Of a stretch of DNA of 64,000 nt, positions 7,368-64,000 are shown piece by piece. Origin of the DNA: Xestospongia bergquistia (taxonomy: Eukaryota; Porifera; Demospongiae; Haplosclerida; Petrosiidae). The DNA is taken from the NCBI GenBank assembly GCA_963965975.1, contig OZ014412.1, positions 2,110,501-2,174,500 on the forward strand, written 5' to 3'. The notes under the pieces are model-generated. The model had not been told where the DNA came from and made no database searches. It was given only the letters and a program-made list of their open reading frames with translations. Every line of letters starts with the position of its first letter. The first letter of the stretch is position 1. The translations under genes were made by a program, and so were the position numbers.

Positions 7368-9626
7368 TTAATTTGATGTTGATGCTATTATATTTTCATA
7401 GCCATCAGTACAAATCATACTAGGTTGTATTGTTATATATGATGGATTACTCTCTAACTCCACTCTTTTATTTGTTATCTCTAACATGTTCACAAAAATG
7501 TATACTGATAATACATGAAGTTAAACATTATAATTTACCTTCCTCATATGCAGGATTATGAGTGATAGCTTTCTGATCAACTATATAGAATTATATGAAA
7601 ATATTTAGTTTATAACCACTCTTTCTTACCTCCAACTTCATATTGCTGTCTCTTCTTCTTCCTCCAATATACAGTAATACTAATAGCTATCACTATTATA
7701 GTAATAACAATTATTACTACAATACTGACTGTACTAGTAGTAATAGCAATGAAGATGAACACAGACTGATTGGTAGCTAATTAGCAGATAAAATAATAAT
7801 ATTTATTAAGGATATATTTACTAGAAAAAATAGTAGGTTCTACTGAGTGTATTGATATCATGATCAAAGTTATTCCAGATGCTCTGGTGATGTCACTGGT
7901 CAACACAGAGATTGATACATCATTTAATGTTATACCTAGTGATATAGAATTGTACATAATAATTATTATACTTACTGATAGTACTAACAGTCTCAGTAGA
8001 AGATGGCCATGGTAGTAAGATAAATTTCAGTACTTGATGGTACACAACAGATGGGTTAGTTATAATAGTACCATCTACTATATCATGAGCTGTCACAGTA
8101 TAGTTACCACTAACTGGTAGAGTTATATACTTGTATACTGTACTCTCCTCTATACTGGATTTACTCATATTAATAGACTTCAAAGTTCCTTTAGAAGACT
8201 CTCTTATATCACATGTATATATAAAATATCACATGACATCCATCAGCAGTAGATCTCTCAGCAAACCTACACTCTACAACAACTGATCCATTATCAGAGT
8301 AGTACTGTAGAGTGAGTCCTTAAACATGATAGGTTGCTATAGGAAATATTGTATAATAAAATTTTAAATTGTTAACTCACTAAAAATAATAAAATCTTGG
8401 TCTTTAGTGTTATTAAAAGAGTTTGTGATGTACACAGTAAAAGTGTAGTTATTAAATGGATCCAGACCAGTGATATTATAACAGATAATGACATCATCAT
8501 TAGTAGTAGTGTTTCCAATATATTGAAGATGATAAGTTGTCACAATATTGTTATATTCAGTTGTACCAAATAACAGACTATTACACAGTCTAGGTGTACC
8601 ATTGACCTTGTAATAAAAACAATTTGGTCCAATCTAATTTAAATTAAATCAAATCAACCTTTAATTTAAACTGTGTAATGAATTCAGTTTCAGTGTCATC
8701 AAATATTACAGTAAAGATATTTATTTCAACTGTATAATCTGTAATAGAGTACAATCACTATATTTGGTAATATTGTGTCAACTTACTTCCTGAGTATTCT
8801 CTTGTTAAGCTAACACCAATTGATGTGTATTGTTCAGTAAAAGCTGTTACAATAACAGTATAAATATCACAAATTGTGAAGTTATTAGAAAATTCATTAT
8901 TATAAAATGTATTAGTTGTATTAATATTTACTATTACAGAACCATCTTTACTCTTAACAATAACATGATATGTTGTAATACTCCCTTGTGGAATATCATC
9001 GGAATAAAATGATGGAGGAGACCAAGTTACTGAAAGGTTTTTTAACATCAAAATAAGTAGTCCCTCAATAGATGAAATACCTAAAGAGTATAAGTAAGTA
9101 TCTTTATATACAACATATGACAATACTAAAGACTAAACTTGCATACCTTCAATAGTTAAAGTAGCTCTTTTCTTTTCTATATCGTATGGATTAGAATTGA
9201 TCACATTACATCCAATGCCTATTCCATCATTAATAGGTAGTGCTCTTATAGTTAGTACTGATGACCACACATCAACTGATATATTGTTAGTAGTTACTGA
9301 TATCTCTCTGTCTTGATTACTGTGATCAGTGTGTGAACTACCCTGTACTGTCCATATCAATGCAACTCCTGTGCCCTCACAGGTAAAGTTAGCCAGTGTA
9401 TAAAGTGGAATAGACACTGATAAAGGAGCTACTGTAAAATCTATAATATACACATACAATAACTGAATTAAGGTAAGTATATTGCAGAATTCATTAAAAA
9501 ACCAAGCTATTTCAAAAAAGCAACAAACCAATTAAATATATATTGTTATTTAAACTTACTAGCTCCATTGACTGCCAAAATTCTTAAAATTAAGATAAGA
9601 CTGGCCTTCAAGACTACCTCATCCAT
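7368..9626 (-). pseudogene. F1: Ig/FN3 receptor copy with broken exon 6
   Basis: Ten exons (minus, 5' to 3'): 9626-9560, 9440-9147, 9080-8787, 8738-8659, 8606-8381, 8336-7976, 7935-7822, 7776-7630, 7580-7539, 7480-7368. The signal peptide starts MDEVVLKASLILILRIL. Ig, FN3, split module, Cys-pair module, stem, TM (IVVIIVITIIVIAISITVYW) and tail are all recognisable. The tail has NPAY, NPSYITI and GYENI. Exon 6 has two lesions: CAA to TAA just after its start (near 8321) and a 19-base insertion near 8210-8230 that repeats CATGTGATAT and adds a stop and a frameshift. The secreted N-terminal half could still be made. An AATAAA signal lies about 75 bases after the stop. Nearest relative in the window is F10. 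Confidence 0.85.
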
Positions 9627-11650
9627 TGTTTGTTGAAATAACACAAGTTTTAATTACAACTTTCTATATTTCCTTATTAGGAATGTACATCAATAGCAGT
9701 GTTGACAATACTAACATGATTTTATCTGACATTGTAGAAATTTAAGTTAGCGCTATCTTTTATTTAATAGAATGCTTATCATAAAACTTTTAAATACAGA
9801 AGTCCTAGTCTACTTTCTTGAACATGTCAGTTCATGACATCTCTAGATCTATATATATTGATGCAACCTCATTGACAATACTAACATGATTTTAACTAAT
9901 ATTGTAGAATAATTCAGGTTAGTGCTATCTTTTATTTAATAGACTACTCATCAAAAAATTTTCAAATACAGAGTCTTCTGTCTTGTACATGTGAGTGTGT
10001 GACATCTCTACATATGTTGGTACAATGTCATTGACAAGACTAACTTATATAATATTTTTAAAAATTATATCATATAACTTTTAAAAATAATGAATGCAAC
10101 CTAGGATGTCTAATATAGTTCTAACAAACACTTTTCAAGGAGGTAGCTAGCCACAATGATGACAATAGCATAATTTCTACATATAACATAAACATGATTC
10201 CAATCTAACTAAGAAAAGGAATCTATACAAGATAATAGCAATGCACTGATGTCATTTCTATTATTCTTTTACTTGGTATTATGCTATTATATTGGGATAT
10301 TTAGCAAATTTCTACTATAATCAAACATTGCCTAAACTAGTAACTAAACAAGTCATTACTTCAAAATTATTTTATGTGTAGAAATAAACACTACACAGTA
10401 TATATCAGTTTGAATGAGATATTTATTATTTTCTTCTCTGGGCTATCCCCATATTACATAGGCAGTGCTATAACATTATTATTGTCAATAATCAATAAGT
10501 ATTTTATTTTTTTGTGTGTGCTATTATGTACAGATGATGTTATTACCATCACTGTCTATTGTTTCAGAATAGATGCACTTCAACATCTTCCTCATGTCTG
10601 GGAAGTAGATGTCATTCAAAAAAGGATTTCTCAAAATCCTTCAAAGTATTCCTTCCAGATAACTCCAGTAAGGTATAACAACTAAATAATTAGAAAATTA
10701 TTCCTAAATGTTCAATAATCTCAGCTCATTTGTATTTTTATTATCACATAGATACTAAAAAGTTATCAAAAGTTATATTATATCCATATTTAAGAAAAAT
10801 ATTTACTTAAACATGTTGACATGGAAAAGTCACTTCAACTTACAGTTCTAACATTTAAAGTTCAAGGTTACCTACCTATAAGTAGCCACTCTCAGCAGGA
10901 ACTGTCAAGATCCTAGCTAACCCTCCATAGCATTTAACTATATAAGTTATTACTACAATAAATTTAGTATGACTTCTATTTCTTCAACTCTTCATCCAAT
11001 TCTTTTAATTTAACTTTGAAATCATCAGTTTGACTGTAGATATGGGTGCTAAGATTGTAACTAACAAAGCATCAGAACCTTTAATATTTATATAGATTGT
11101 ATACTAGATGTAAAATTTTGATAACTAAATATAGTTGATGTCATGCTGCTAATATGTGTTATACTGAATGCTTGGCATTTGTACAAGTGGTTGGCTTAAA
11201 TGACCATTTTAAAATATTTATGAAATGTCTTGGTTTAGTGAGTGAAATAGTAGAGTAGATATAGCACAGTTGTTATGTGGTATTGCAAAGATGATAATAT
11301 AACTATCTTGTTTATAATATTTTTATTTAATCTATGAAGACTTTTCATCACATACACTTTTCAGTACAAAAAATTATGTATTTGGATGGAGTTATTAACG
11401 GAACAATTAAGACTAAAAATACAAGTTCAATATTGCTAACTTATTTATCAACTTTTATAAACATTTATTTTGGTACATGACATACTGCTTACAAGGCTAA
11501 TAGTTAAACTTAACAAGACCAGAATTACAATAAGTAGTATTTAGTTGAATACACTAGTCAATATATGTATTATATATATATATTTATATATATATATAAT
11601 ACATATAGTCAATATATCATATTAACTATATGATCAAATGATGTGATAGT
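9627..11650. other. F1 upstream region, no gene recognised
   Basis: The first ~560 bases match the region upstream of F10 (56417-56790) and contain a local duplication (about 9690-9770 against 9880-9960). A 103-codon open frame at 10374-10685 has no family motif and is not supported as a gene. An AT microsatellite lies near 11572-11602. Confidence 0.6.
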
Positions 11651-12010: not shown

Positions 12011-12049
12011 TACTATCAATATATCATAGTTTTTCATGTACTAATATTA

Positions 12050-13733: not shown

Positions 13734-15969
13734 TTAATGTGATATTGATGATGTACTGACTGTTATATTTTCATAGTCATCAGTACATATCCTACTAGGT
13801 TGTACTGTTATATATGATGGATTACTCTCTAACTCCACTCTTCTACTTCTCATCTCTAATCTGTTCACTAAATGTATAATGATAATATTATATGATGAAG
13901 TTAAATAATATAGTTTACCTTCTTCATATGCAGGATTATGAGTGATAGCTTTCTTATCAACTGTTTAGAAATTAATGAAATATTAATTTATAACCACTCT
14001 TTCTTACCTCCAACCTCATGTTGCTGTCTCCTCTTCTTCCTCCAATATACAGTAATACTAGTAGCTATCACTATTATAACAATAACAATTATTACTACAA
14101 TACTGACTGTACTACTAGTAATAGTAATGAGGATGAACACAGACTGATTAGTAGCTGTAGATGTAATTAAATATTAATATTTATCAAGGATATATTTACT
14201 AGAAAATATAGTAGGTTCTACTGAATGTACTAATGTCATCATAAGAGTTATACTAGGTGTACTAGTGATATCACTTAACAACACAGAGACTGTTGCATCA
14301 TTAAATGTCATACCTAGTAATATATTATAAAGAACAGTACACAATAGTCATTTATATACTATTTACTGGTAGGAACAATAGTCTCAATAGGAGATGGTAG
14401 TAGTAAGATATATTCCAGTACTTGAGGGTACACAACAGATGGGTTAGTTATAATAGTACCATCTACTATATCATGAGCTGTCACAGTATAGTTACCACTA
14501 ACTGGTAGAGTTATATACCGGTATACTGTATTCTCCTCTATACTGGATTTATTCATATTAATAGACTTTACAGTTCCTTTACAAGATTCTCTAAATATCA
14601 CATGACACCCATTAGAAGTAGATCTCTCAGCAAACTTACACTCTACAACAACTGATCCATTACCAGAGTAGTACTTTAGAGTGAATCTTTGTACATGATA
14701 AGTTACTGTAAGTAATATTGGTTTATAATAAAATTCTAAATTTTGTTAATTCACCAAATATGATATGATCTTGGTCTTTAGTGTTGTTAAAAGAGTCTGT
14801 GATATATGCAGTAAAAGTGTAGTTATTAAATGGATCCAGACCAGTGATATTATAACAGATAATGACATCATCATTATTAGTAGTGTTTCCAATATATTGA
14901 AGATGATAAGTTGTCACAATATTTTTATATTCAGTTGTACCAAATAACAGACTATTACACAGTCTAGGTGTACCATTGACCTTGAAATAATAAAAGTTTA
15001 ATATATCTACTGTACTATAAATATAATACTATACCTTTAACTTGAACTGTATATTGAAATTGTTTTCTGTGTTAATGAATATTACAGTATAGTTATATAT
15101 TTCAACTGTATAATCTGCAATAGAGTATAATCAATGTATTTGGTTATATGTTATACATATCAACCAGCTTTTGTAATAGAATATCATTTTACTTGCTATA
15201 ATGTTATGTGAACTTACTTCCTGAGTATTCCCTTGTTGAGCTAACATCAATTGAAGTATAATGTTCAATAAATGCAGTTACAATAACAGTATAAATATCA
15301 CAGACTATTAAGTTATTAGAAAATCCATTATTATAGAATGTATCAGTTGTGTTAATATTTACTAATAGAGAACCATCTTTACTCTTAACAATAACATGAT
15401 ATGTTGTAATACTTCCTTGTGGAATATCATCAGAGTAAAATGATGGAGGAGACCAGTTTAATGAAAGATTATGTAACATCAAAATTAATAGCCCCTCAAC
15501 AGATGAAATTCCTTGAAGTGTAAAAAAATTGTTATGTTCATTATAATAACATAAAAACAATATTAGATGTCTACCTTTAATATTTAAAGCAGCTCCTTTT
15601 TGAATAATACCAAATGGATCAAAACTGACCACATCACATCTAACACTTATCCCATCATTAATAGGTAGTGCTCTTATAGTTAGTACTGATGACCACACAT
15701 CAACTGATATATTGTTAGTAGTTACTGATATCTCTCTATCTTGATTAGTAAGATGAGTAAGTGAATGTTCCTGCACTAACCACTCCAGTATATCTCCTAT
15801 ACCCTCACAGGTAAAGTTAGCCAGTGTGTAAAGTGATGTATTAACTGATGAAGGAGCTATTGTGATATCTGCAGTATTACATGCTATTAATAATCATGTA
15901 GTTACACTTAAGCTTACCAGCTCCATTCACAGTCCACATAGTTAGTAGCAAAATAAGAATGTCTTTCAT
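13734..15969 (-). CDS. F2: intact Ig/FN3 receptor with NPxY/YEN tail
   Basis: Predicted 569-residue type I membrane protein. Exons (minus): 15969-15918, 15868-15575, 15511-15218, 15114-15035, 14980-14755, 14705-14367, 14313-14200, 14154-14008, 13960-13919, 13855-13734; every boundary is in phase. Residues about 1-17 are the signal peptide (MKDILILLLTMWTVNGA). 18-115 is Ig (Cys in FTCEG, SSVLTIRALPINDG, second Cys VRCDV). 116-213 is FN3 (WSPPSFYSDDIP). 214-315 is an FN3-like module split between exons 4 and 5. 316-428 is a module with a Cys pair (VECKF/NGCHV). The stem follows, then TM (SIVVIIVIVIIVIATSITVYW) and tail with NPAYEE, NPSYITV and DDYENI. These could recruit PTB and SH2 proteins; that is inference. 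AATAAA lies about 90 bases past the stop. It starts head-to-head with F3. Confidence 0.88.
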
Positions 15970-16880: not shown

Positions 16881-19800
16881 ATGGAATTAACAGTCTTGTT
16901 GGTCATTTTTCTATGTTTTTTTTCTTATGGTGCTGGTAAGTCATAGAATTAATATTAATAGTTAATAGATTCTTTTTATTGATAAAACAGATATCACAGT
17001 AGCTCCCTCATCTGTGACTGCTTCACTTTATACACAGGCTAACTTTAACTGTGAAGGAACAGGAGATATATTGTTGTGGACAGTACATAGTAATTCACCA
17101 ACTGATCCCAGTAATCAAGACAGAGAGATATCAGTAACTACTAACAATACATCATTTGATGTGTGGTCATCAGTACTAACTATAAGAGCACTACCTATTA
17201 ATGATGGGATAAGTATTGGATGTACTGTGATTACTTTGAATCCATATGATAAGAAGCCAATAGGAGCTTTTTTGACAATTGAAGGAGTTTCACCTGTAAA
17301 TAACCTTGCTTTCTATTCTATCCTTATGAATTCTCCTTTCTTCACCTGGTCTCCTCCATCATTTTACTCTAATGATATTCCACAAGGAAGTATTACAACA
17401 TATCATGTTTATATTAAGAGTAAAGATGGCTCTGTAATAGTAGATGATAATACAACTGATACATTTTATCAGTTATCTAGTAACTTTACAGACTACTGTA
17501 ATTCTTATAATGTCAGTATTATAGCATTTATTGAACAATACAGTTCACCTGCTACAAATGCTATTATAGGAAGTAAGATCATATTAATTATATATTACTA
17601 TAATATATTACTACATAATCAGATTATACTATTGACATACATAGCCATGATGTGAACTTTATCAACTTTGTAAACAGTTCTATAATACAAGTACATTTAC
17701 TATCATTGTAAGGACTACATTATATAAACAACTTACAATAATTTTAATTAATATATATTTTCTAGATCAAAGTTTTCCCTCACCTATGTAATAGTATCAT
17801 ATATGGTATAACAAAGGATAATGTTAACAATGAGACAACAACCTATCATCATGTTTATATTAAGAATGTTACTGATGTTAATGAAACAACAATATATTAT
17901 AATATAACTGGACTACATCCTTCTCTCAATTATACATTTACTGCATATATTATGGATTTATTTAATAACACAAAGAATGAAGATCATGTAATATTTTGTG
18001 AGTTAATAGTTTGTATTTCCTAACAATTCCTTCGTTATCACCATAGCAATCTACAATGTTCAAGGACTCACTCTACAGTACTACTCTGATAATGGATCAG
18101 TTGTTGTAGAGTGTAGGTTTGCTGAGAGATCTACTGCTGATGGATGTCATGTGATATTTAGAGAGTCTTCTAATGAAATTGTGAAGTCTATTAATATGAG
18201 TAAATCCAGTATAGAGGAGAGTACAGTATACCAGTATATAACTTTACCAGTTAGTGGTAACTATACTGTGACAGCTTATGATATAGTAGATGGTACTATT
18301 ATAACTAACCCATCTGTTGTGTACCCTCAAGTACTGGAATATATCTTACTACTACCATCTCCTACTGAGACTATATTTATTACTGGTAAGTAATATAATT
18401 GTTATTGTATTATACAATGTTCTTATAATCTTACTAGGCATAATATCAACTTATGATACAGTCAGTGACATTACTAGTACTACTGATATTACTAGTACTA
18501 CTGGTATAATGATATCTGTAGAACCTACTAGTGGAATATATGATGGTCAGTCTATGTGTGTCACTTAACTTGAATTGATTAATTTTATTACAGATTCTAT
18601 TTATATCAATTTTATATCTGTTGTTATTGGAGTATTACTGATAGTTATAACCTGTATTGCTGTGATAATAACAGTTTTTAGTTGTATTATTCTGAGGAGA
18701 AGGAAAAAGCTTGTAATGACTCATAGTGCTGGTATGCAGAGTTATTAACTGTAATAATATGACATTTTTACTAACAGAGAGACCAGTTGTATGTTATCCA
18801 CAAACTAACAAGAACAGGTATGTTAATTATAATTTGTTTAATATGATTATTATCTTATATTAGCTATGAAGGTCCAGATCAGTTACAAAGTGTTATTACA
18901 GTACCAAACCCTAGTCTATGCGAGGTAAACAAGTCTTTGTTGTTCTTTTACAACAACCTGTAGTATTGTTGTTATATAGCAACTACATTTCATGTTAATA
19001 AGTTATGTAAACAAGCTTTAATATTGAATAAATAGAATAGGCAGAAACTATATAACTTGCTTTGGTAACTGGTTGACACTATGTACTTGTCTTGAAAGAT
19101 TCATAATTAGTTTTTTACACACACAGGCACATATTATATTAAAAACAATGTGTACATTAGTTTTATGTGGGCATCTAAAATATAATATTTTTGCGTAAAT
19201 AAATATATTATTGTGGTATAGTAGAAAATGATTTTTAATCAATAAGTATAATCAACTTTTTGTTATACATTAACAACTATGCATTAAATTGATAATCTCT
19301 CTGTTATTAAATGTTTCATGAATATAATCATTTTTTTATTGCTATATGTTGGGGCTATTGACTTTGCTATTACCACATTGGCTGACAATCATGAGGATGT
19401 CACGTCTATACCAATTGATGATCAAGAAGTGTCAAATAATCTAGTTAATGATCCACCTGAATCTGACAATTTACCAATCGATCAAGTATGTGAAAACATT
19501 AACATATATATCAGTTAAAACTAATCTTTATTTTAGAGTCAACCTTGTCTAATTCCTGCTAATAATATCACACCTGAGTCTGCCAATGGTTCATGTGATT
19601 CAGTAAATTCTGCATGTCCAATACCTAATGCACAACCAGCTGATATTTTTAACAAGGAAAAGAGTACACCTCGATACAATGATATAGGGTTTCATAATAT
19701 TATACTTTATCCCTTACCTCTCACCTCCACTGGTGGTATTCCAGTACAATACAGTGATATCAGATCTGATATTAATACTCTTAATGTTACGGTAATACTA

Positions 19801-24187: not shown

Positions 24188-24960
24188 ATGCAATTAACAA
24201 TTTTGTTGGTTGTTTTTTTTATTTTTTCCTTCTGATGCTGCTAGTAAGTCATAGAATTAACAGTTAATAGATTTTTTTACTATAACACAGATATCACTGT
24301 AACTCCATCATTGGTGGTTGCCCCAATTTATACACAGGCTAAGTATATCTGTGAGGGTACAGGAGATATGTTGTTATGGACAGTAGGTGGTAATTTACTC
24401 ACTGATCCCAGTAATCAAGACAGAGAGATATCTGTAACTACTAACAATATATCAGTTGATGTGTGGTCATCAGTACTAACTATAAGAGCACTACCTATTA
24501 ATGATGGAATGATTTTTCAGTGTACTATGATTACTTTTAATCCATATATTAAGAGCCAGATAGGAGCTATTTTGATAATTGAAGGAGTCTCACCTGTAAG
24601 GTACCTTGCTTTCTATTCTACTCTTATGAACACTCACGTGTTAACCTGGTCTCCTCCATCATTTTACTCTGATGATATTCCACAAGGAAGTATTACAATA
24701 TATCATGTTTATATTGAGAGTAAAGGTGGAATTTATAATAGTAAATGATAATACAACTGATATTTTCTATGAATTACCTGGTAATCTCATTGTTGACTGC
24801 AATTCTTATAATGTCAGTGTTATAGCTTTTGTTGAACAATACAGTTCTCTTTCTAAAAATATTACCCAAGAAAATACAGGGTAGGGCTGATCAGAAGCTG
24901 TGTAAAAAGATAACAACACTTTATAATATAAATAAATGCTATTACAATAGTTTATCTAAC
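24188..24960 (+). pseudogene. F4: broken F3-like copy fused to a tail exon
   Basis: The start codon at 24188 begins a signal peptide (MQLTILLVVFFIFSF) that hits TGA before the donor. The Ig plus FN3 exon (24291 onward) is fused without an intron as in F3, and keeps FYSDDIPQGS. A one-base insertion near 24735 shifts the frame, and the FN3 module resumes in another frame (NTTDIFYELPG ... ENTG). At 24880 the sequence jumps directly into the tail-exon type seen at 32712 (GADQ). Modules 3 and 4, stem and TM are absent. Confidence 0.8.
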
Positions 24961-30780: not shown

Positions 30781-30808
30781 GCTTCGCACTAAAGATGGAG
30801 GGAGGAAA

Positions 30809-31029: not shown

Positions 31030-31042
31030 GTATTGAACTCAC

Positions 31043-43482: not shown

Positions 43483-45313
43483 ATGAGTAATCAAATAAAA
43501 ATGATTTTGGTTTGTTTGGGAAGTCTTCTTTTCACTTTTAGAGGGATTGATACAGCTGGTAAATTATTTATAGTTTGTATTATTTTTTAAATTCTTCATT
43601 TAATCATAGTTATCACAAATACTTCCTCTTCTGTTACCACTCCACTTTATACACTGGCTACCTTTACCTGTGAGGGTATAGGAGATATACTGCAGTGGTC
43701 AGTAGGTGGTAATTCACTCACTGATCCCAGTAATCGAGACAGAGAGATATCAGTAACTACTACTAACAATATATCAGTTGATGTGTGGTCATCGGTACTA
43801 ACTATAAAAGCACTACCTATTAATGATGGGATAACTGTTCAATGTACTGTGATCAGTCAGAACCCTTTTGATTTTAAAGTAAAAGGAAATACTTTAACAA
43901 TTACAGGTCACTATTATATTATAAATCTTCATTTTTATTCAACAATATTCAGGTATCACATCAGTGGAAAACTTTACTTTTAGTCTCAACACTTCTTCAG
44001 GCTTGGTAGCCTGGTCTCCTCCATCATTTTACTCTCATGACATTCCACATGGGAGTACTACAATATATTATGTTTATGTTGTGAATCAAAATGGCTCTGT
44101 AATCACAGATGTTAATACAACTGATACATTTTATCAGTTATTTAGTAACCTCACAGAGTGTGATATCTACAGTGCAAGTGTCACAGCTTTTATTGAACAA
44201 TACAGTTCACTTGTTACAAATGCTACTGAAGAAAATACTGGAGGTAAGATTGTATTACTTCTCTTTTTAATAAATATATTATCAGATTATACTATTGAAA
44301 TACTTAACCATACTGTGAAGTTTAATATCTCTGGAAACAGTTCTATAATACAAGTACAATTTACTATCAATGTAAGGATTAACTATATAAATATATGTTG
44401 ATGTAATTTATGTTTTCTAGATTAGGGATTTCCCTCATCTATGTGATAGTATCATATATGGTATTACAAAGGATAATGTTAACAATGAGACTCAGTCTTA
44501 TGATCTTGTTTACATCATTGCCAATAATCTTAATGAAAAAAAAGTATATTACAATATAACTGGACTACATCCTTCTCTCAATAATACATTTACTGCATAC
44601 ATTATGGATTTATTTAATAACACAAAGAACGAAGATCATGTGATATTTTGTGAGTTATTAATTAATATATCCTGTGACTTTGTTATCACTATAGCAATCT
44701 ATAATGTTCAAGGACTCACTCTACAGTACTACTCTAATAATGGATCAGTTCTTGTAGAGTGTAGGTTTGCTGAGAAATCTACTGCTGATGGATGTCATGT
44801 GATATTTAGAGAGTCTTCTAAAGGAACTGTAAAGTCTATTAATATCAGTATAGAGGAGAGTACAGTATACCAGTATATAACTCTACCAGTAAGTGGTAAC
44901 TATACTGTGACAGCTCATGATATAGTAGATGGTACTATTATAACTAACCCCTCTGTTGTGTACCCTCAAGTACTGGAATATATCTTATTACTACCATCTT
45001 CTACTGAGACCATTTTTCCCACCAGTAAGTAGAATATGCTAACTATTGTTTACTGCTTTATGTTATCTTATTAGGTACAATATCAAGTGCTATGACAGAT
45101 GATATAACTAGTACTTCTTATGTAACTGTCACATCAACACCGAGTCCTTCTACTGTTTCTAAATGGATTATCCAAATAACTTCATATAGTGGGTTGTTAG
45201 TGTTAGTGTTAGTAGTAGTGCTAGTGGTATTAGCATGTATTGTTATTGTTAGAAGACGTAAATGTGGTAATGGTCAAATAAATTCACCACCAACAGGCGT
45301 CAGCAACATATAG
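43483..45313 (+). CDS. F8: intact receptor with very short tail
   Basis: Predicted 515 residues in seven exons: 43483-43558, 43610-43906, 43953-44243, 44286-44371, 44421-44649, 44695-45024, 45075-45313, all in phase. Signal peptide MSNQIKMILVCLGSLLFTF; Ig (FTCEG, VQCTV); FN3 (WSPPSFYSHDIP); split module with HLCDS; Cys-pair module (VECRF/DGCHV), with three codons deleted in frame at the KSS site. A final single exon combines stem (Thr/Ser-rich), TM (LLVLVLVVVLVVLACIVIV) and a tail of about 20 residues, RRRKCGNGQINSPPTGVSNI, with no tyrosine. It cannot signal by phosphotyrosine alone; it could be a decoy, an adaptor-dependent chain or an adhesion form. The TM has no charged residue. Confidence 0.88.
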
Positions 45314-45591
45314 TGTAATAAGATCCAAAATTCAAATATATAACAATATTTGTCCTTTATTCCTATATAATATGAAAGGTCTTATTTATTTTTTTAAAGT
45401 TTTCTTACTTTTAACAGTTTGTTACTTGTTCCTATAAACTATATTAATGTCAAAATTTAAATAATATATTTATGTTAAAATTTAATTTACACTACTTATT
45501 ATAAATTTGATGTCTTGTACAAAATCATTCTTAATATGATTCTGTAATGATAATTTTTAATAACGGATGAATAAGACAAGATTAGCAACTT

Positions 45592-45897
45592 ATGATGTTC
45601 AAGGACTCATTTTACAGTCCTACTCCGATAAGTAGTTGTATATTGTAGGTTTGCTGAGAGATCTACTACTAGTATTGCTGATGGATGTCATATGATACTT
45701 AGAGAGTCTTCTAAAGGAGCTTTGAAGTCTGTTAATATCAGTAAATCCAATATAGAGGAGAGTACAGTATACCAGTATATAACTCTACCAGTTAGTGGTA
45801 ACTATACTGTGACAGCTTATGATATAGTAGATGGTACTATCATAACTAACCCATCTGATGTGTACCCTCAAGTATTGGAATACATCTTACTTCTATA
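45592..45897 (+). pseudogene. Orphan Cys-module exon
   Basis: A copy of exon 6 of the family. Early stops and a lost segment break it at the first Cys, and a 12-base expansion sits before ADGCH. The rest (SIEESTVYQYITLPVSGNY) is nearly identical to intact copies. It ends at a stop instead of a donor. Confidence 0.75.
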
Positions 45898-46494: not shown

Positions 46495-47010
46495 TATTAC
46501 ATTTTCATAGTCATCAGTACATGTTCTACTAGGTTGTACTGTTATATATGATAGATTACTCTCTAACTCCACTCTTCTACTTCTCTTTTCAAGTATATGG
46601 ACTACACAATGTAACTAAATGGGATCATTAACTAAATTACTACCTACTGTCCATGGCAAGATATCTCCATTGCCCACACAAGTAAGTTAACCAGTGTATA
46701 AAATTGAGCAGCACTGATGAAGGAGCTACTGTAATATCTATATATCGTTAGTAGTTACTGATATCTTTCTGTTTTGATTACTGAGATCAGTGAGTGAATT
46801 ACCCTCTACTGTCCACTCTAACACATCTCCTGTACCCTCACATGTAAAGTTAGCTAGTTTGTAAATTTTAGAAGATACTGAAACAGGTAGTATTGTGATA
46901 TTAGCTGCATTAAAGAAAGAAGGAACAGATGTATTAATTTTTCATTTATTATCACTCTCTCTAAAGGTAAATAAAAGTCCCAGAAAGATTGCCTTTTGAT
47001 TTGCTGCCAT
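46495..47010 (-). pseudogene. Scrambled minus-strand receptor fragment
   Basis: From 5': signal-peptide start MAANQKAIFLG (47010), an Ig exon 5' part (about 46905-46740), a second overlapping Ig 5' part (about 46735-46620), then a tail exon (about 46600-46495) with NLSYITV in place of NPSY. FN3, middle modules and TM are missing. The two tandem Ig pieces show an internal duplication. Confidence 0.65.
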
Positions 47011-47445: not shown

Positions 47446-48510
47446 TGAGTGATAGCCACTTATCTTAATTCTCATTATTATGTCTGTAAATGGAACTAGT
47501 AAGTTTTAATGATTAATGTCCATGGGTTTATTACTATTATATTGTAGATATCCCAGTAGCTCCTTCATCAGTACCAACTATAAGAACACTACCTGTTAAT
47601 TTTGGGGTCTATGTTGGATATGTTGATGAACTGACACTACTTTTAATCCTCAATATTTTAATAAGAAAAATGGAGTTACTTTAGCAGTGAAAGGTTAGTT
47701 TCTATTATGAAACATAATTAATTGACATAAATAAGATTACCATAATTATATTAACAAGATTATAAAATCATCCCAAGATATTAGCATCACTAAAATAATA
47801 CATAGAGTATAATTCATTTACATTAATAGCTTCAATTTCAACAGTAAATGTAATCTAAACAAATAATTTTGGATTACTAATTGTTGAAACAGGATATGGG
47901 AACCCTTAATCTTGTGTACTCAACCCCACAGGACAACAAAATCATTAGTAATATAGTGAGTAAAAGAGACTAATGAATAATATTATTATTATAATAATTT
48001 GATAGAAATGAAGTTTTATTATTTGTTAATTATGTTTTGATATTGTGAAGTAAAGTGATAATTAAAATATTAAATTTACTTGAACAATTTGTATTAATGA
48101 TAGGTATTTCATCTGTTGACCACCTTGATTTGAATTTTGCTAACATTGCCTTCTTAATCTGGTCTCCTTCATCATTTTATTCTGATGATGTTCCACAAGG
48201 AAGTATCACAACATATCATGTTTATATTAAGAGTAAAGATGGCTTTGTAATAGCAGATACTAATACAACTGATACATTCTATCATTTATATATAATAGTA
48301 AGCTCATTGTTGACTGTAATTCTCATAATTTCAATATCACGGATTTTATTGAACAATACAGTTCACATGATAAAACTATTGCTAAATACAGGAAGTTATT
48401 TATGTTATCTATTCAAAATATTGACATTTTATATCAGATTATACTAATGATGTACATGAACCTATAATGAAATTCAACAGTTCTATAATACAAGTACAAT
48501 TTCCCATCAA
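47446..48510 (+). pseudogene. Decayed receptor: signal, Ig, FN3, module-3 pieces
   Basis: A signal-peptide exon remnant near 47446-47500 (SVNGTS before GTAAG) is followed by a heavily shortened Ig exon (47548-47693, IRTLPVNFG). An FN3 exon from 48104 (GISSVDHL, FYSDDVPQGS) loses frame near 48295. A module-3 piece lies at about 48438-48515. No TM or tail exons follow. Confidence 0.7.
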
Positions 48511-48515: not shown

Positions 48516-49582
48516 TTTTCATGAAACATGAAGTTCTTCAGTATATATTGTCTTCAACCAATAATGAGGTATTAGTAATGATGAATTTCTTAGACAACTA
48601 GTAGAAAGAACATGGATAGGCTTTTATACATAACCTTTTCAGTAGCACCTAATAATTTATTTGTATTAACTTTAGACAAACATGAGACGTCACTATTATC
48701 TAGATTGCTCTTGGACATTTTATTGTCATTTAATAAACACAAATCACAAATGTTTTTTATCCATGATGATTTATACACATACTGTGACTATGATTATATA
48801 TTTCTTGTATAATACTAAGAAATCTACAAATTGGTATGTTAGTAGCAGCAATGTAATATTGGTAAGCACTATATACAATTATATACCAAGGATAGATCAC
48901 ACATTAACCTTGCATTATCAGGTAATGTTGACTTTAGCATTGACTCTTCAAACTCTGTATAACAAGGAACAATAAGAGATATATTGTTTTATGATATTAA
49001 CAAATTGTGTTCATAAACACCATTTATTTCAGATGACACAGAAGGTTTCTGTATTGTAGTATTAATGCTACTACTATAAGAGAGAACTCTACCAAATCGA
49101 GTGGAACTTGATGGGTTATAACAGGAGTTGATACAGTCTATGAGAGTGGAGGCTATGCTTGAGAAGATGTAATTTGTTGTTCATGTTGTCTTCTTATGTC
49201 AAGTAACTAAATAAATTGAAATAGAAACATATCAGTTTGTCATCTTCTATTAACATTAATAATATCAGAAACAAACAACCTTTCACCAGTTATTCATCAT
49301 CCTAACTTCTATTAACTAGGAATGTTACATACTGTAATATAACTTAATACCATATAGCTGGTAATTTTGGAGGGAGAAAAATATGGCAAGTTGATATAAA
49401 ATAGACTAAAAATAATAGTTAAATTTTAATTTGACAAATAACTTGTTCTGCCTACTACCATATCTCAAATTAAAATATTGAATGATAAAATTTTGGCAAA
49501 ATAAAATGCAATTCACAAAGTTCACTAATATTTTCTCCTTCCAAGATTTCCTGCTATATAGTGAATGTAATGTTTTTACTGT
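48516..49582. other. Intergenic region, no gene recognised
   Basis: Small open frames (48590-48975) show no family motif. No further tail exons for F9 were recognised on the minus strand here. Confidence 0.5.
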
Positions 49583-52054
49583 TTACATAACAGTACATGA
49601 GAAAATCACCACATATATAGCAGTAAATACCTCATGATGACTTATATGGTAAGCATCAGGCATAGGTATAGTTAATTGAACTGGATCTTCATAACTAATA
49701 CAAAGTGTAATAGAGTAATGATAGTAATATACAGTAGTAACATACTTGTTGTTTTGAGCTTGTGGATAATGTACAGTTGTTCTCTCTATTAATAGAAATT
49801 TAAAGTGAATATATTAGTATTAATAACTTCACATACCTTCACTGAATGCTATCAAAGGGCTGTTTCTCTTCTTTCGAACAATAAGACAAATATATACTAT
49901 CACAAGTATTATCATTGTCAATATCACCATAACAACTAGTATAGCAGATAACAAATAGATATTTCCTGAAACTACAAATAATCATCACTATAACCTAATA
50001 TATATATAATATACTTACTATTAGATATTCCACTAGTAGGTTGAACAGATGTCATTATATGAATAGTACTATTAGTGTTAGTGATCAAAGAGATTGTCTT
50101 AACATTTGAAGTAGTATCTAATAAAATATATAAAATACAATAAAAATATTGTGAATGCTACTTATTAGTAGTACTAATAATGTCAATGATAACTTCATCA
50201 TTTGACATAATAAATAGTTGAGAATACAGCAAAATAATAATTGGTAAATATTACATACCGATAATAATAACAGTATGAGTTGGTAATACTAAGCTATATT
50301 CCAGTACTTGAGGGTACACAACAGATGGGTTTGTTATAATAGTACCATCTACTATATCATGAGCTGTCACAGTATAGTTACCACTAACTGGTAGAGTTAT
50401 ATACTGGTATACTGTACTCTCCTCTAGACTGGATTTAGTCATGTTAATAGACTTCACAGTTCCTTTAGAAGACTCTCTAAATATCACATGACATCCATCA
50501 GCAATAGATCTCTCAGCAAACCTACACTTTATAACAACTGATCCATTATCAGAGTAGTACTGTAGGGTGAGTCTTTGGACATGGAAGGTTGCTATAAGAA
50601 ATATGTTTATAATAAAATCAATATTTGTTAACTCACTAAATATGATATGATCTTGGTCTTTAGTATTGCTTAAAGAGTCTGTGATATATACAGTAAAAGT
50701 ATAGTTATTAAATGGATCCAGACTAGTAATATTATAACAGATAATGACATCATTATTATTAGTAGTGTTTCCAATATATTGAAGATGATAAGTTGTGACA
50801 ATATTGTTATATTCAGATGTACCAAATAACATACTGTTACACAGTCTAGGCGTACCATTGACCTTGAAATAAGAAACGTCTTCTTAAAATTATTATCAAT
50901 AAGATACTATACCTTTAACTTGAACTGTGTAGTAAAATTGTTTTCAATATCAATAAATATTATTGTATAATATTTTATTTTAACTGTATAATCTGTAATA
51001 GAATAAAATGACTATATTTGGTAATATGTTTTGTCAACTTAATTACTTCCAGAGTATTCTCTTGTTGAGCTCTATTAATAACATATTGTACCTTTAACTT
51101 GAATTGTGTAGTGACATTGGTGTTAGTATCAGTAAGTATTACAATATAATTTTGTATTTCAACTGTATAATCTGTAATAGAGTACAATCACTATATTTGG
51201 TAATATGTTATGTCAACTTACTTCCTGAGTATTCTCTTGTTGAGCTAACATCAATTGATACATATTGTTCAGTAAAAGCTGTTACAATAACAGTATAAAT
51301 ATCACAGATTGTGAAGTTATTAGAAAACTCATTATTATAAAATGTATCAGTTGTATTAATATTCACTATTACAAAACCATCTTTGTTCTTAACAATAACA
51401 TGATATGTTGCAACAATTCCTTGTGGAATATCAATAGAGTAAAATGATGGAGGAGACCAGGTTACTGAAAGATTATCATGTGACATTAAAATTGTTAAGT
51501 TTCTAACTGATGATATACCTAATAAAATATGTGCAGTTATTATTAGCCTATGTTAGTGTCATATACCTTTAACAGTCAAAGTAACACCTTTTTGTTGAAG
51601 ATTTAATGGATCAAAACTTATCACACTACATTGAACAGCTATCCCATCATTAATAGGTAGTGCTTTTATAGTTAGTACTGATGACCACACATCAACTGAT
51701 ATATTGTTAGTAGTTACTGATATCTCTCTGTCTTTATTACTGGGATCAGTGAGTAAATTACCTCCTACAGTCCATGATAGTATATCTCCTGTACCCTCAC
51801 AGGTAAAGTTAGCCAGTGTGTAAAGTGAAGCAGACACTGATGAGGGAGCTATTGTGATATCTATAATATGCACATAATTATAATTATTATTATTATAAGT
51901 ACATTACAGACTTTATACATAACAAACCATGGCAAGCAAACTCTACAGAGGAACAAATCATTCAAATATATTATAATTTAAACTTACTAGCTCTATTTAC
52001 TGACCAAATTATCAAGAGTAAGATAAGACTGGGCTTCAAGACTACCTCATCCAT
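49583..52054 (-). CDS. F9: chimeric receptor with two copies of exon 4 and an F3-like tail
   Basis: Exons (minus): 52054-51988 (signal peptide MDEVVLKPSLILLLIIW), 51860-51567 (Ig), 51518-51222 (FN3), 51171-51092 (exon 4a), 50992-50913 (exon 4b), 50862-50637, 50591-50259 (Cys pair KCRF/DGCHV), 50117-50019 (Thr/Asn stem), 49971-49837 (TM LLSAILVVMVILTMIILVIVY), 49785-49746 and 49694-49583. 4a and 4b are both 80 bases and phase 1 to 0, so only one can be used per transcript. A 3' stub of a second FN3 exon (51044-51066) lies between them. The tail, with HYPQAQNN then NYEDP, resembles the F3 tail start; it reads to a stop at 49583 unless a further splice occurs. The 5' half is nearly identical to F7. 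Confidence 0.72.
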
Positions 52055-54204: not shown

Positions 54205-56416
54205 TTAATATGATGTTGATACTATTATATTTTCATAGTCAGCAGTACATGTCCTACTAGGTTGTACTGTTATATATGATGGATTACTCTCTAACTCCAC
54301 TCTTCTATTTGTTATCTCTAATCTGTTCACTAAAATATATAATGATAGTACATGTAGTCAAACAATATAGTTTACCTTCCTCATATGCAGGATTATCAGT
54401 AATAGCTTTCTGATCAACTATATAGAATTATATAAAAAATTAATTTATAACCACTCTTTCTTACCTCCAACTTCATATTGCTGTCTCTTCTTCTTCCTCC
54501 AATATACAGTAATACTAGTAGCTATCACTATTATAGTAATAACAATTATTACTACAATACTGACTGTACTACTAGTAATAGTAATGAAGATGAACACAGA
54601 CTGATTGGTAGCTAATTATAGCAGATAAAATAATAATATTTATTAAGGATATATTTACTAGAAAAAATAGTAGGTTCTACTGAGTGTATTGATGTCATGA
54701 TCAAAGTTATTCCAGCTGCTCTGGTGATGTCATTGGTCAACACAGAGATTGATACATCATTTAATGTCATATCTAGTGATATAGAATTGTACATATTAAT
54801 TATTATACTTACTGATAGTATTAACAGTCTCAGTAGAGGATGGCCACGGTAGTAAGATATATTTCAGTACTTGATGGTACACAACAGATGGGTTAGTCAT
54901 AATAGTGCCATCTACTATATCATGAGCTGTCACAGTATAGTTACCACTAACTGGTAGACTTATATACTGGTATACTCTACTCTCCTCTATACTGGATTTA
55001 CTGATATTAATAGACTTCAAAGTTCCTTTAGAAGACTCTCTAAATATCACATTACATCCATCAGCAGTAGATCTCTCAGCAAACATACACTCTACAAGAA
55101 CTGATCCATTATCAGAGTAGTACTGTAGAGTGAGTCCTTGAACATGGTAGGTTGCTATGAGAAATATTGTATAATAAAATTTAAAGTTGTTAACTCACCA
55201 AATATGATATGATCTTGGTCTTTAGTATTGTTAAAATAGTCTGTGATATATACAGTAAAAGTGTAGTTATTAAATGGATCCAGACATTAATATTATAACA
55301 GATAATGACATCATCATTAGTAGTAGTGTTTCCAATATATTGAAGATGATAAGTTGTCACAATATTGTTATATTCAGTTGTACCAAATAACAGACTATTA
55401 CACAGTCTAGGTGTACCATTGACCTTGTAATAAAAACAATTTGGTCCAAACAAATTTAAATTAAATCAAATTAACCTTTAATTTAAACTGAGTAGTTACA
55501 GTATAGTTTTTTATTTCAATTGTATAATCTGTAATAGAGTACAATTACTATATTTGGTAATATGTTATGTCAACTTACTTCCAGAGTATTCTTTTGTTGA
55601 GCTAACATCAATTGATACATATTGTTCAGTAAAAGCTGTTACAATAACAGTATAAATATCACAAATTGTGAAGTTATTAGAAAATCCATTATTATAGAAT
55701 GTATTAGTTGTATTAATGTTTACTATTACAGAACCATCTTTACTCTTAACAATAACATGATATGTTGTAATACTCCCTTGTGGAATGTCATTGGAATAAA
55801 ATGATGGAGGAGACCAAGTTAATGAAAGTTTATTTAACATCAAAATAAGTAGACCCTCAATAGATGAAATACCTAAAGAGTATAAGTAAGTATCTTTATA
55901 TACAACATATGACAATACTAAAGACTAAACTTGCATACCTTCAATAGTTAAAGTAGCTCTTTTCTTTTCTATATCGTATGGATTAGAATTGATCACATTA
56001 CATCCAATGCCTATTCCATCATTACTAGGTAATGCTCTTATAGTTAGTACTGATGACCACACACCAACTGATATATTGTTAGTAGTTACTGATATCTCTC
56101 TGTCTTGATTACTAGGATCAGTGAGTGAACTACCCTGTACTGTCCATGTCAATGCAACTCCATTACCCTCACAGGTAAAGTTAGCTAGTGTGTAAAGTGG
56201 AGTAGACACTGATGAAGGAGCTACTGTGATATCTGTAATATACACATACAATAACTGAATTAAGGTAAGTACATTGCAGACTTCTTTAACAAACCAAGCT
56301 ATTTCTAAAAAGCAACAAACCAATTAAATATATTGTTATTTAAACTTACTAGCTCCATTGACTGCCAAAATTGTTAAAAGTAAGATAAGACTGACCTTCA
56401 AAACTACCTCATCCAT
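54205..56416 (-). pseudogene. F10: receptor copy with a one-base deletion in exon 5
   Basis: Exons (minus): 56416-56350, 56232-55939, 55872-55579, 55528-55476, 55423-55199, 55154-54813, 54772-54659, 54611-54465, 54417-54376, 54317-54205. Exon 4 is 53 rather than 80 bases, an in-frame loss of nine codons. Exon 5 is 225 instead of 226 bases because one base is missing near 55284-55288 (the YNITGLDPF region), which shifts the frame. Every other exon is clean: Ig, FN3, Cys pair (VECMF/DGCNV), TM and tail with DNPAYEE, NPSYITV and ADYENI. It could be a young pseudogene, an allele or a sequence error. Close duplicate of F1, but without F1's two lesions. Confidence 0.82.
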
Positions 56417-58179: not shown

Positions 58180-60406
58180 TTAATGTGATGTTGATGATGT
58201 ACTGACTGTTATATTTTCATAGTCATCAGTACATATCCTACTAGGTTGTACTGTTATATATGATAGATTACTCTCTAACTCCACTCTTCTACTTCTCATC
58301 TCTAATCTGTTCACTATAATATATAATGATAATACATGAAGTTAAATAATATAGTTTACCTTCTTCATATGCAGGATTATGAGTGATAGCTTTCTGATCA
58401 ACTACATAGAATTATATGAAATATTAATTTATAACCACTCTTTCTTACCTCCAACCTCATGTTGCTGTCTCTTCTTCTTCCTCCAATATACAGTAATACT
58501 AGTAGCTATCACTATTATAACAACAACAATTATTACTACAATACTGACTGTACTACTAGTAATAGTAATGAGGATGAACACAGACTGATTAGTAGCTGTA
58601 GATGTAATTAAATATTAATATTTATTAAGGATATATTTACTAGAAAATATAGTAGGTTCTACTGAATGTACTGATGTCATCATCAAAGTTATACTAGGTG
58701 TACTAGTGATATCACTTAACAACACAGAGACTGTTGCATCATTAAATGTCATACCTAGTAATATATTATATAGAACAGTACACAATAGTCATTATATACT
58801 ATTTACTGGTAGGAACAATAGTCTCAATAGGAGATGGTAGTAGCAAGATATACTCCAGTACTTGAGGGTACACAACAGATGGGTTTGTTATAATAGTACC
58901 ATCTATTATATCATGAGCTGTCACAGTATAGTTACCACTAACTGGTAGAGTTATATACTGGTATACTGTATTCTCCTCTATACTGGATTTATTCATATTA
59001 ATAGACTTTACAGTTCCTTTACAAGACTCTCTAAATATCACATGGCATCCATTAGAAGTAGATCTCTCACCAAACTTACACTCTACAACAACTGATCCAT
59101 TATCAGAGTAGTACTTTAGAGTGAGTCCTTGGACATGATAAGTTACTGTAAGTAATAATGGTTCATAATAAAATTATAAATTTGTTAATTCACCAAATAT
59201 GATATGATCTTGATCATTAGTGTTGTTATAAGAGTCTGTGATATATGCAGTAAAAGTGTAGTTATTAAATGGATCCAGACCAGTGATATTATAACAGATA
59301 ATGACATCATCATTATTAGTAGTGTTTCCAATATATTGAAGATGATAAGTTGTCACAATATTGTTATATTCAGTTGTACCAAATAACAGACTATTACATA
59401 GTCTAGGTGTACCATTGACCTTGAAATAATAACAGTTTAATCCAAATTACTGTAAATAGAATACCATACCTTTAATTTGAACTGTGTAGTGACATTGGCT
59501 TCATTGTCATTAAATATTAAAGTATAATTTTGTATTTCAACTGTGTAATCTTTAATGGAGCATAATTGATTTGTTTGGTAATGTTATGTCAACTTACTTC
59601 CTGAATATTCTCTTGTTGAGCTAATATCAATTGATGTGTATTGTTCAGTAAAAGCTGTTACAATAACAGTATAAATATCACAGACTGTGAAGTTATTAGA
59701 AAATCCATTATTATAGAATGTATCAGTTGTATTAGTGTTTACTAGTTGAGAACCATCTTTTCTCTTAATAATAACATGATATGTTGTAATACTTCCTTGT
59801 GGAATATCATCAGAGTAAAATGATGGAGGAGACCAGGTTATTGAAAGACTATTCATTATCAAAATTACTAAAGCCTCAATAGATGAAATACCTAAAGAAA
59901 TACATATTTAATACTAACAATATAAGTCTGTTTTTTAACAGTACCAGCTTGATCAAGCAAACATTAACTGACAACACTGGTCAAGTGCTCATACCTTTAA
60001 TGGTCAATGTAGCTCCTTTTTGTTTTAAACCATAGGGCTTGAAACTAATCAAATTACATTCAATACTTATCCCATCATTAATAGGTAGTGCTCTTATAGT
60101 TAGTACTGATGACCACACATCAACTGATATATTGTTAGTAGTTACTGATATATCTCTGTCTTGATTACTGGGATCATTGAGTAAATTACCTCCTACTGTC
60201 CATGTCAGTATATCTCCTGTACCCTCACAGGTAAAGTTAGCCAGTGTGTAAAGTGGAGCAGACACTGATAAAGGAGCTACTTTGATATCTACAATATAAT
60301 AGAAATAAACTCATGGAAATAAACCATTTAAACTTATACTAGTTCCATTTATAGAGATAACAATCACAAGGAAGATAATTAAAACTTTTAAAATAACTTC
60401 ATCCAT
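58180..60406 (-). CDS. F11: intact Ig/FN3 receptor, one NPxY changed to NLSY
   Basis: Predicted 574 residues. Exons (minus): 60406-60340, 60288-59995, 59891-59598, 59549-59470, 59419-59194, 59145-58807, 58754-58641, 58595-58449, 58401-58360, 58301-58180, all in phase. Signal peptide MDEVILKVLIIFLVIVISI; Ig (FTCEG, IECNL); FN3 (WSPPSFYSDDIP); Cys pair ECKF/NGCHV; TM SIVVIIVVVIIVIATSITVYW. The tail keeps NPAYEE and DDYENI, but the middle motif is NLSYITV (CCA to CTA), which should weaken PTB binding while leaving the tyrosine. AATAAA lies about 90 bases after the stop. 3' exons are closest to F2; 5' exon and upstream sequence are closest to F6. Confidence 0.88.
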
Positions 60407-62298: not shown

Positions 62299-64000
62299 TC
62301 ATTGTGATGCTATTACATTTTCATAGTCATCAGTACATGTCCTACTAGGCTGCACTGTTATATATGATGGATTACTCTCTAATTCCACTCTTCTACTTCT
62401 CATTTCAAGTATATGTACTATATGTATATATAATAGTAATAATGATGAAGTTAAACAATATAGTTTACCTTCCTCATATGCAGGATTGTTAATAATATCT
62501 TGCTGATTAACTGTATAGAATTATTATGAATATATTACTTTGTAACTACTCCACTTTTTACCTCCAACTTCATGTTGCTGTCTCTTCTTCATCCTCCAGT
62601 ATACAGTAATACTAGTAACTAACACTATTATAGCAATAACAATTATTACTACAATACTGACTGTACTACTAGTAATAGTAATGAGGATGAACACAGAAGC
62701 TATACTTAACACAGATCTGATAAAATATTTTTTATTAAGGATATATTTACTTGAAAAAGTAGTAGGTTCTGAGTGTACTGATGTCATCGTTAAAGTTATT
62801 CCAGCTGTACTAGTGACATCACTGATCAACACAGAGACTGTGGTCTCATCATTTAATAATATACCTAGTAGTATATATTATATAGAACAATACACAATAG
62901 TCAGCATATACTATTTACTGGTAGGAACTATAGTCTTAGTAGGAGATGGTAGTGGTATGATATACTCCAGTACTTGAGGATACGCAACAGATGGGTTAGT
63001 TATAATAGTACCATCATCTATATCATGAGCTGTCACAGTATAGTTACCACTATCTTGTAAAGTTATATACTGGGATACTATACTCTCCTCTATACTGGAT
63101 TTACTAATATTAATAGACTTCACAGTTCCTTTATGAGAAGACTCTTTAAATATCACATGACATCCATCAGCAGTAGATCTCTCAGCAAATCTACACTCTA
63201 TAACTACTGATCCATTATTAGAGTAGTACTGTAGAGTGAGTCCTTGAACATGATAGGTTGCTATGAGAAATTTTGTATAACAATTTTAAATTTTTAACTC
63301 ACTAAAAATAATATGATCTTGGTCTTTGGTGTTGTTAAAAGAGTCTGTGATATATACAGTAAAAGTGTAGCTATTAAATGGATCCAGACCAGTAATATTA
63401 TAACAGATAATGACATCATCATTATTAGTAGTGTTTCCAATATGTTGAAGATGATAAGTTGTCACAATATTGTTATATTCAGTTGTACCAAATAACAAAC
63501 TATTACAAAGTCTAGGTGTACCATTGACCTTGAAGTAATAAAACTTTTTAATCTAAATTTGCTATTAATAAGATATTGTACCTTTAACTTGAATTGTATA
63601 GTGATGTTGGTGTTAGTATCAGTAAGTATTACAATATAATTTTGTATTTCAACTGTATAATCTGTAATAGAGTACAATCACTATATTTGGTAATATGTTA
63701 TGTCAACTTACTTCCTGAGTACTCTCTTGTTGAACTAACATCAATTGATATGTATTGTTCAGTAAAAGCTGTTACAATAACAGTATAAATATCACAGATT
63801 GTGAAGTTATTAGAAAACCCATTATTATAAAATGTATCAGTTGTATTAATATTCACTATTACAAAACCATCTTTGTTCTTAACAATAACATGATATGTTG
63901 CAACAATTCCTTGTGGAATATCAATAGAGTAAAATGATGGAGGAGACCAGGTTACTGAAAGATTATCATCTGACATTAAAATTGTTAAGTTTCCAACTGA
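62299..64000 (-). CDS. F12: receptor, partial at the window edge
   Basis: Exons seen (minus): part of FN3 exon 64000-63712, 63661-63582, 63528-63303, 63260-62919, 62864-62751, 62699-62562, 62510-62469, 62417-62299. All are in frame and without stops. The Cys-pair module (IECRF/DGCHV), stem, TM (SIVVIIVIAIIVLVTSITVYW) and tail (NNPAYEE, NPSYITV, DDYENV) match F7 almost base for base. The intron between stem and TM exons is short, and its sequence is open in frame in this copy, so a retained-intron form would still be translated; in F7 the same intron has a stop. Signal peptide and Ig exons should lie beyond the right edge. Confidence 0.85.

Follow-up and report, generated by a model that had tools for sequence, protein, structure and literature searches.

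The window analysed here, a stretch of 64,000 nucleotides from Xestospongia bergquistia (contig OZ014412.1, C2:2110501-2174500), holds 12 copies of a type I receptor family of Ig-FN3-FN3-FN3 plan (immunoglobulin, Ig; fibronectin type III, FN3), together with fragments. Judged from matches across the 146 Mb searched (21 contigs), the family is real, large and strongly mosaic, with about a hundred genomic copies when broken ones are counted. In window order the copies are labelled a, b, A, B, h, i, c, D, d, e, f and g, which are taken to be the F1-F12 of an earlier note on this DNA; they lie where that note placed them. Its statement that all 12 have the same ectodomain plan is too strong, as just five (b, c, f, D and g) are open over the stretch read. 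The tandem cluster that it described holds as a cluster and not as a single head-to-tail array, nine copies being on the minus strand and three (A, B and D) on the plus strand. The guanine-plus-cytosine (GC) content is 27-33% per 4-kb step, with one step at 41%.

Copy f serves as the model gene (Table 1). A custom spliced aligner resolved it into ten exons with GT-AG borders: signal peptide, Ig, FN3a, FN3b (two exons), E5 (the fourth domain), stalk, transmembrane segment (TM), an exon with the NPAY motif and the last exon. The introns, judged by eye, are mostly in phase 1. Are the domains indeed of the Ig and FN3 families? A Pfam scan of the Ig exon of one copy gave no match, and the fn3 matches in domains 2 and 3 were weak (E 0.013 and 0.018; single-exon scan, one copy); family membership was therefore judged by predicted fold. 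A PDB sequence search with the Ig and fourth domains also gave nothing significant (best E 0.27 each). In the Ig domain, C21, W30 and C78 are invariant in 32 of 32 aligned rows, which places the Cys of strand B, the Trp of strand C and the Cys of strand F of the Ig sandwich. The AlphaFold2 model of this domain has a mean pLDDT (predicted local distance difference test) of 83.5, and its Foldseek matches are Ig domains of adhesion and receptor proteins, with MuSK at the top (E 4.8e-5). The model of E5 (mean pLDDT 79.4, seven strands) has an FN3 domain as its top PDB match (E 7.2e-4, TM-score 0.61), and this points to an ectodomain that probably consists of one Ig and three FN3 domains.

Table 1. 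Features of the receptor cluster in window positions and, in the last row, places elsewhere in the genome by contig (C). Loci read outside the window carry L numbers; aa, amino acids.
Feature	Position	Strand	Description
Copy a	7368..9626	-	stop and frameshift in fourth domain; NPxY/YEN tail
Copy b	13734..15969	-	open from start to stop; NPxY/YEN tail; last exon 99% identical to L076
Copy A	16881..19761	+	long ITIM-like tail; one-base deletion in first FN3b exon; some tail exons and tail end provisional
Copy B	24287..24880	+	Ig and FN3 alone, frameshift; no tail
Copy h	31032..32170	-	truncated after second FN3; no tail; retroelement frames start about 100 bases beyond
Copy i	34958..35907	-	Ig exon, then start of FN3a fused in frame to TM exon; NPxY/YEN tail; ATG lost
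Copy c	40157..42438	-	open from start to stop; NPxY/YEN tail
Copy D	43483..45313	+	open, 516 aa; tyrosine-free short tail
Copy d	49556..52054	-	chimera: 5' part g-like, 3' part like long-tail gene L071; tail end predicted
Copy e	54205..56416	-	two frameshifts; NPxY/YEN tail
Copy f	58180..60406	-	model gene, 10 exons, 578 aa; NPxY/ITIM/YENI tail; all introns GT-AG, stop-free
Copy g	62299..64000	-	open, cut by window end, 5' part in L010; NPxY/YEN tail
Junction in copy d	50913..51171	-	first FN3b exon twice (51171-51092, 50992-50913); identity to g switches at 51072/51071
E5 exon of copy f	58807..59145	-	FN3 fold in model; homogenised family-wide
Ig-exon core of copy f	60074..60145	-	homogenised; codons 71-94, strands D-E and EF turn
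Ig and fourth-domain fragments	36462..37420	+	
Fourth-domain exon fragment	45588..45895	+	orphan
Signal peptide and half Ig exon	46495..46989	-	followed by orphan NPxY/YEN last exon
FN3 exon	48103..48434	+	orphan, frameshifted
Paired-SH2 places	C3:1266-1283 kb (six, in tandem), C3:916 kb, C7:8319 kb, C6:199 kb		L084-L087 read

The Ig exon has at least 128 genome matches at E <=0.001 among the best 150 of 197 candidates scored; the top one, at E 1.9e-53, is far above chance, and the last 15, at 29-35% identity, resemble other Ig families. E5 has at least 132 matches (150 of 260 candidates scored), the final few at 29-37% identity, FN3a has 90, the NPxY/YEN last exon 67 and the d-type tail six; in all these counts fragments are tallied separately, and those for Ig and E5 include some distant families. 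Nearly all strong matches fall into two superclusters on C2, at 0.90-1.41 Mb and 2.09-2.43 Mb. The few others are at C2:5.67 Mb, C2:6.55-6.58 Mb, on C7 and on other contigs, with one distant relative on C12. Further dense Ig-domain clusters, seen among the 150 best PF00047 matches, are at C2:247-402 kb, C2:10.96-11.45 Mb, C7:0.97-1.34 and 4.58-4.65 Mb, and C11:5.94-6.04 Mb.

The existence of at least three tail types is confirmed, and the copies that carry them agree exactly with those listed for F1-F12. Seven of the 12 (a, b, i, c, e, f and g) have the NPxY/YEN tail with the motifs NPAYEE, [P/L]SYITV and DYENI. Copy A has a long tail with PRYNDI and VQYSDI, which resemble the immunoreceptor tyrosine-based inhibitory motif (ITIM), and the tail of d, which begins SYEDPVQL...PYHISHHE, is related to it. 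Copy D ends in RRRKCGNGQINSPPTGVSNI, followed by a stop, and is tyrosine-free; B and h have no tail. The canonical ITIM consensus is [SILV]xYxx[ILV]. It is fitted by the L form of the second NPxY-tail motif (LSYITV or LSYITI), found in f and in eight of the 21 NPxY-tailed loci among 30 E5-centred loci examined, the remainder of the 30 having the d-type tail (four) or neither (five). SQYAEV and VQYCVI stand in an open frame downstream in L071, in a putative exon. Genome-wide, an E5 exon lies within 1.7 kb upstream of the NPxY/YEN last exon in 54 of its 67 matches, and this tail accompanies 53 of the 112 E5 matches entered in the pairing script. L073 and L074 also carry the d-type tail, there preceded by an E5-like domain with just 27-31% identity to the E5 of f. 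A tail at C4:6060550, tried as one with a new ectodomain, was rejected: it belongs to a fragment of the 3' end of a gene, with the TM, NPAY and last exons.

That ectodomains and tails are swapped, as had been proposed, is supported in three ways. The first is a physical chimera. Down to 51072, copy d matches g at 95% identity over 1,876 bases (96-99% in exons) and c at 92%; from 51071 on it is 87% identical to g, a likeness that reaches just E5. Its stalk, TM and SYEDP exons match L071 (84% over 1,534 bases) and have no match to c or g. The ectodomain of d is open, but the first FN3b exon is doubled. The second is a last exon common to genes with other ectodomains. The L076 gene (C2:793 kb, 1.3 Mb off) has an Ig-FN3-like ectodomain that does not match the domains of f significantly (best E 0.094, with E5), yet its tail matches f at E 2e-20. 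Its last exon is 99% identical to those of b, L053 and L068, with a proportion of synonymous differences (pS) of 0.00 over 33 codons, and its TM exon is at most 70% identical to that of any of 26 family members. Two L077 genes behave likewise, with last exons up to 99% and 93% identical. The third concerns distances between blocks across 53 gene loci, five of which are second views of the same gene (last exon, 26 genes and 325 pairs). FN3a distances do not correlate with those of the last exon (r -0.07; odd/even-codon controls 0.94 and 0.93), nor do E5 distances with those of any other block (-0.13 to 0.09; control 0.42); FN3a and FN3b distances correlate at 0.58. As far as the assembled DNA can tell, tail swapping between copies is demonstrated. 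Four-gamete tests (493 of 2016 site pairs in E5, 1798 of 4005 in Ig) are compatible with recombination and also with repeated mutation, and no weight is placed on them. L076 and L077 (C2:793-830 kb) themselves look like a second Ig/FN3-like subfamily with the shared last exon, and neighbouring genes seem to carry further tails.

Where does the Ig exon vary? Between clusters, codons 71-94 show a pS of 0.03-0.05 and a proportion of nonsynonymous differences (pN) of 0.03-0.04, against a pS of 0.22-0.50 in the remaining windows. Among 52 distinct copies, codons 72-94 have a nucleotide diversity of 0.038, against 0.241 for the remainder of the exon. A 102-base core is 96-100% identical in 40 of 40 matches scored (best 40 of 107 candidates), and on the model this near-identical part maps to strands D and E and the EF turn. 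Mean residue entropy in 32 sequences is 1.44 bits in F, 1.55 in FG, 1.30 in G and 1.09 in C, against 0.16 in D and 0.23 in E; the most variable residues alternate (27, 29, 75, 77, 79), as is expected for one face of a sheet. On the predicted fold, the variability of the Ig domain sits on the C-F-G face, which is the partner-binding face in many receptors of the immunoglobulin superfamily (IgSF). A clean exchange of one of two blocks within the Ig exon was looked for and rejected: among the 52 copies no pair had F-G <=0.03 together with N >0.15, nor the reverse (0.05, 0.2). Looser cut-offs gave partial cases, and the blocks of the exon appear decoupled in part (r 0.32 vs 0.60 for odd/even codons).

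Are there candidate partners for the tails? Paired SH2 matches, 318-366 bp apart, occur at nine genome places. Of the four that were read, three have intact SH2-SH2-PTP frames, as Pfam confirms, and the fourth is split by introns and has the PTP signature HCSAGIGRTG. The single open frames of the intact SHP-type genes suggest that these are retrogenes, derived from a copy with introns such as the one on C6. With SHP-type phosphatase genes present, an ITIM-like output of the tails is plausible. No Syk-type kinases were identified in an analysis that listed SH2 matches, and a literature search on sponge SHP phosphatases found nothing relevant among the papers listed (8 of 15). At C6:1622-1697 kb SH2 domains follow one another in open frames some 400-500 aa long, possibly Src-type kinase duplicates.

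We favour, at somewhat better than even confidence, the view that these are recognition receptors of a demosponge-like animal, a large clustered family of single-pass proteins mixed by ectopic recombination. The membrane-distal Ig domain would offer its variable C-F-G sheet to a variable ligand, which might be another family member, an allo-determinant or a microbial molecule, while the three FN3 domains and the stalk would hold it above the membrane. The interchangeable tails (NPxY with [P/L]SYITV and DYENI, long with ITIM-like sites, or short without tyrosine) are envisaged to signal by tyrosine phosphorylation and to recruit PTB- or SH2-containing proteins, including the SHP-type phosphatases. 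The copies would exchange sequence by ectopic recombination and gene conversion, which would combine recognition domains with differing tails and keep E5, the Ig core and the last exon uniform, with the Ig front sheet staying diverse. A self/non-self or immune role is what we infer from this; for function, recognition is the best guess, be it of self, of microbes or in adhesion.

Several findings weigh against recognition by such receptors. In 18 independent closest pairs pN/pS does not exceed 1 (F-G 0.97, C-C' 0.78, N part 0.59), so that diversifying selection on the front face is possible only. Proline occupies the -2 position in 13 of the 21 NPxY tails, which makes the motif a noncanonical ITIM. 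Copy D, the only short-tailed one read, lacks K, R, D and E within the hydrophobic run of its TM. Many copies are broken, and last-exon distances do correlate with those of the Ig N part (0.54), TM (0.52) and FN3b (0.31). The main text of the one graft study searched (PMC5450542) does not contain the words immunoglobulin, fibronectin or receptor. The likeness to paired immune or allorecognition receptors drawn in the earlier note stands as regards the layout and gains from the several SHP-type phosphatases; it fails in the charged TM residue that D lacks.

Could the ligands be microbial? Microbe-sensing immune receptors, whose diversity tracks symbionts or pathogens rather than allorecognition, are a tentative possibility; the layout fits variable innate receptors equally well. 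The more far-reaching proposal is that this is the missing sponge allorecognition receptor, a counterpart of Alr and FuHC close to the root of the animals: an IgSF locus with ITIM/ITAM-like tails (ITAM, the corresponding activation motif) in which templated exchange of exon cassettes would generate diversity, the DNA-identical Ig core acting as the homology anchor between variable front-sheet blocks and the broken copies as donors. We regard this proposal as doubtful. Just as doubtful is an expanded housekeeping or developmental adhesion family under ordinary concerted evolution, with tails that link to the cytoskeleton via PTB proteins and have no part in immune signalling. Ig-FN3 ectodomains with NPxY motifs are typical of adhesion receptors, the Foldseek neighbours include many Ig domains of adhesion proteins and of receptor tyrosine kinases and phosphatases, and pN/pS is below 1. 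Such a family accords poorly, however, with some hundred Ig-exon copies, many of them broken, with variability on one face, with several tail types, one of them tyrosine-free, and with a tail common to very different ectodomains.

Did the near-identical blocks arise by exchange, or are they kept by constraint at the nucleotide level, e.g. by splicing or RNA elements? The exons of one gene show an approximately tenfold spread in silent age. Synonymous divergence (dS) was compared between a set of seven minus-strand copies of the window, among them the broken a and e, and 13 genes from the cluster at 0.9-1.4 Mb. The medians are 0.126 for E5, 0.32 for Ig and 0.34 for the tail exons (0.20 within the window); those of FN3a (0.96), FN3b (1.48), stalk (1.49) and TM (1.24) are near saturation and alignment-dependent. 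A recent expansion, as claimed earlier, thus describes part of the exons, such as that of the fourth domain with its dS near 0.1. With the FN3, stalk and TM exons near silent saturation between clusters (dS about 1 or more), the family as such is old and repeatedly re-mixed rather than simply recent. When pairs from 50 distinct genes are binned by the silent divergence of FN3b, the middle of E5 tracks FN3b in recent pairs (0.03 vs 0.04; 0.06 vs 0.08), then stays at 0.05-0.08 while FN3b climbs to 0.69. In the most recent bin (18 pairs) stalk and TM are already at 0.41 and 0.22. An early clock followed by a plateau, with stalk and TM old in recent pairs, is predicted by exon exchange and not by uniform constraint.

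Constraint is improbable as the general cause, although parts of the data agree with it. In the Ig core pN is about equal to pS, both being low, and the core keeps no clock in recent pairs, with a pS of 0.02-0.04 in all bins. Beyond the borders of the E5, Ig and last exons, identity is down to background within some 10-20 bases; where distant genes have near-identical E5 exons, the introns in front of them are barely more similar (0.63) than shuffled sequence (0.61). Fourth-domain dS is no larger between clusters than within them, which also counts against simple proximity-driven conversion, and the four-fold sites of the whole domain are overdispersed (1.74). The four-fold sites in its middle are, on the other hand, Poisson-like (dispersion 0.93), and the domain diverges about as fast as FN3b in recent pairs before the plateau. 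Certain distant genes have last exons with no silent difference, against a within-window median dS of 0.20 for the tail exons, and chimera d preserves a physical junction. The contrast in silent age from exon to exon offers a clear natural case in which some exons, or part of one, are homogenised and their neighbours remain old. Least probable of all is a mostly decaying array of little function: seven of the 12 window copies are broken, truncated or provisional, but the other five are open, splice sites are all present where readable, and closest pairs hold pN/pS at 0.49 in the fourth domain.

How do the sponge genes compare with known systems? The vertebrate paired receptors (KIR, LILR) have similar ectodomains on differing tails and lie in gene clusters. 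The sponge family likewise has one ectodomain plan on different tails in a cluster; unlike KIR and LILR, its short-tailed copy D is without a charged TM residue and its main NPxY/YEN tail is mostly a noncanonical ITIM. To our knowledge, the SpTransformer (Sp185/333) proteins of the sea urchin have no Ig domain, TM or signalling tail. Shared with the sponge family are the clustering of these immune genes and their build as mosaics of sequence blocks, termed elements; the genes have two exons and the products opsonize bacteria (PMC8634487; this and the papers below are cited for the sections consulted). In the sponge family, by contrast, exons, or a portion of a single exon, make up the blocks in common. 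Aggregation factors are allorecognition candidates of sponges. Both PMC12065747 and PMC5450542 cite studies of them. The former, a 2025 review, describes the allorecognition candidates of sponges, cnidarians and ascidians as unrelated, and the systems from cnidarians to mammals as converging on ITIM/ITAM signalling. A likeness may be drawn to the Alr family of the Hydractinia allorecognition complex (PMC11067881), where candidates have ITIM and hemITAM motifs (as cited in PMC12065747). Compared by description, the sponge copies differ from Alr in having one Ig and three FN3 domains, higher identity between copies and mosaicism at the level of exons. Botryllus FcoR/fester at fuhc are also IgSF receptors with ITIM or hemITAM tails, and alternative splicing can exchange ITIM for hemITAM (PMC12065747); unlike these receptors, with Ig and sushi ectodomains, the sponge swap is genomic, between copies. 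Searches of an open literature library found no published sponge receptor of the ITIM/ITAM-signalling kind. The tail-swapping Ig cluster and the several SHP-type phosphatase genes provide a concrete locus at which to ask whether ITIM/ITAM logic extends to sponges.

Other features of the window and genome may be mentioned. Retrotransposon-like gag (CCHC) and reverse-transcriptase-like frames, labelled by eye, lie at 28419-30934 (+) in the 41% GC block, about 100 bases past the broken end of copy h. Between A and B, the frame at 21715-22080 (+) encodes what we take to be a THAP-like zinc finger, perhaps derived from a DNA transposon. Minisatellites of 41 bp are found 3' of copies b and i (12369-13405 and 33658-34326) and, by the repeat search, nowhere else in the window. 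At 266-2819 (+) are frames of an apparently different Ig/FN3-type gene with a DWNGDGVSD motif, where the family seeds gave no match. Judged from the sequence, one silicatein-like exon makes a sponge origin of the genome likely; silicateins have Ser at the active-site position. Eight protease loci were inspected out of 20 silicatein-like peptide matches; seven (L078-L083, L089) have a cysteine-protease active site, and the eighth, L088, contains a silicatein-like exon with GCSYAF and Ser at that position.

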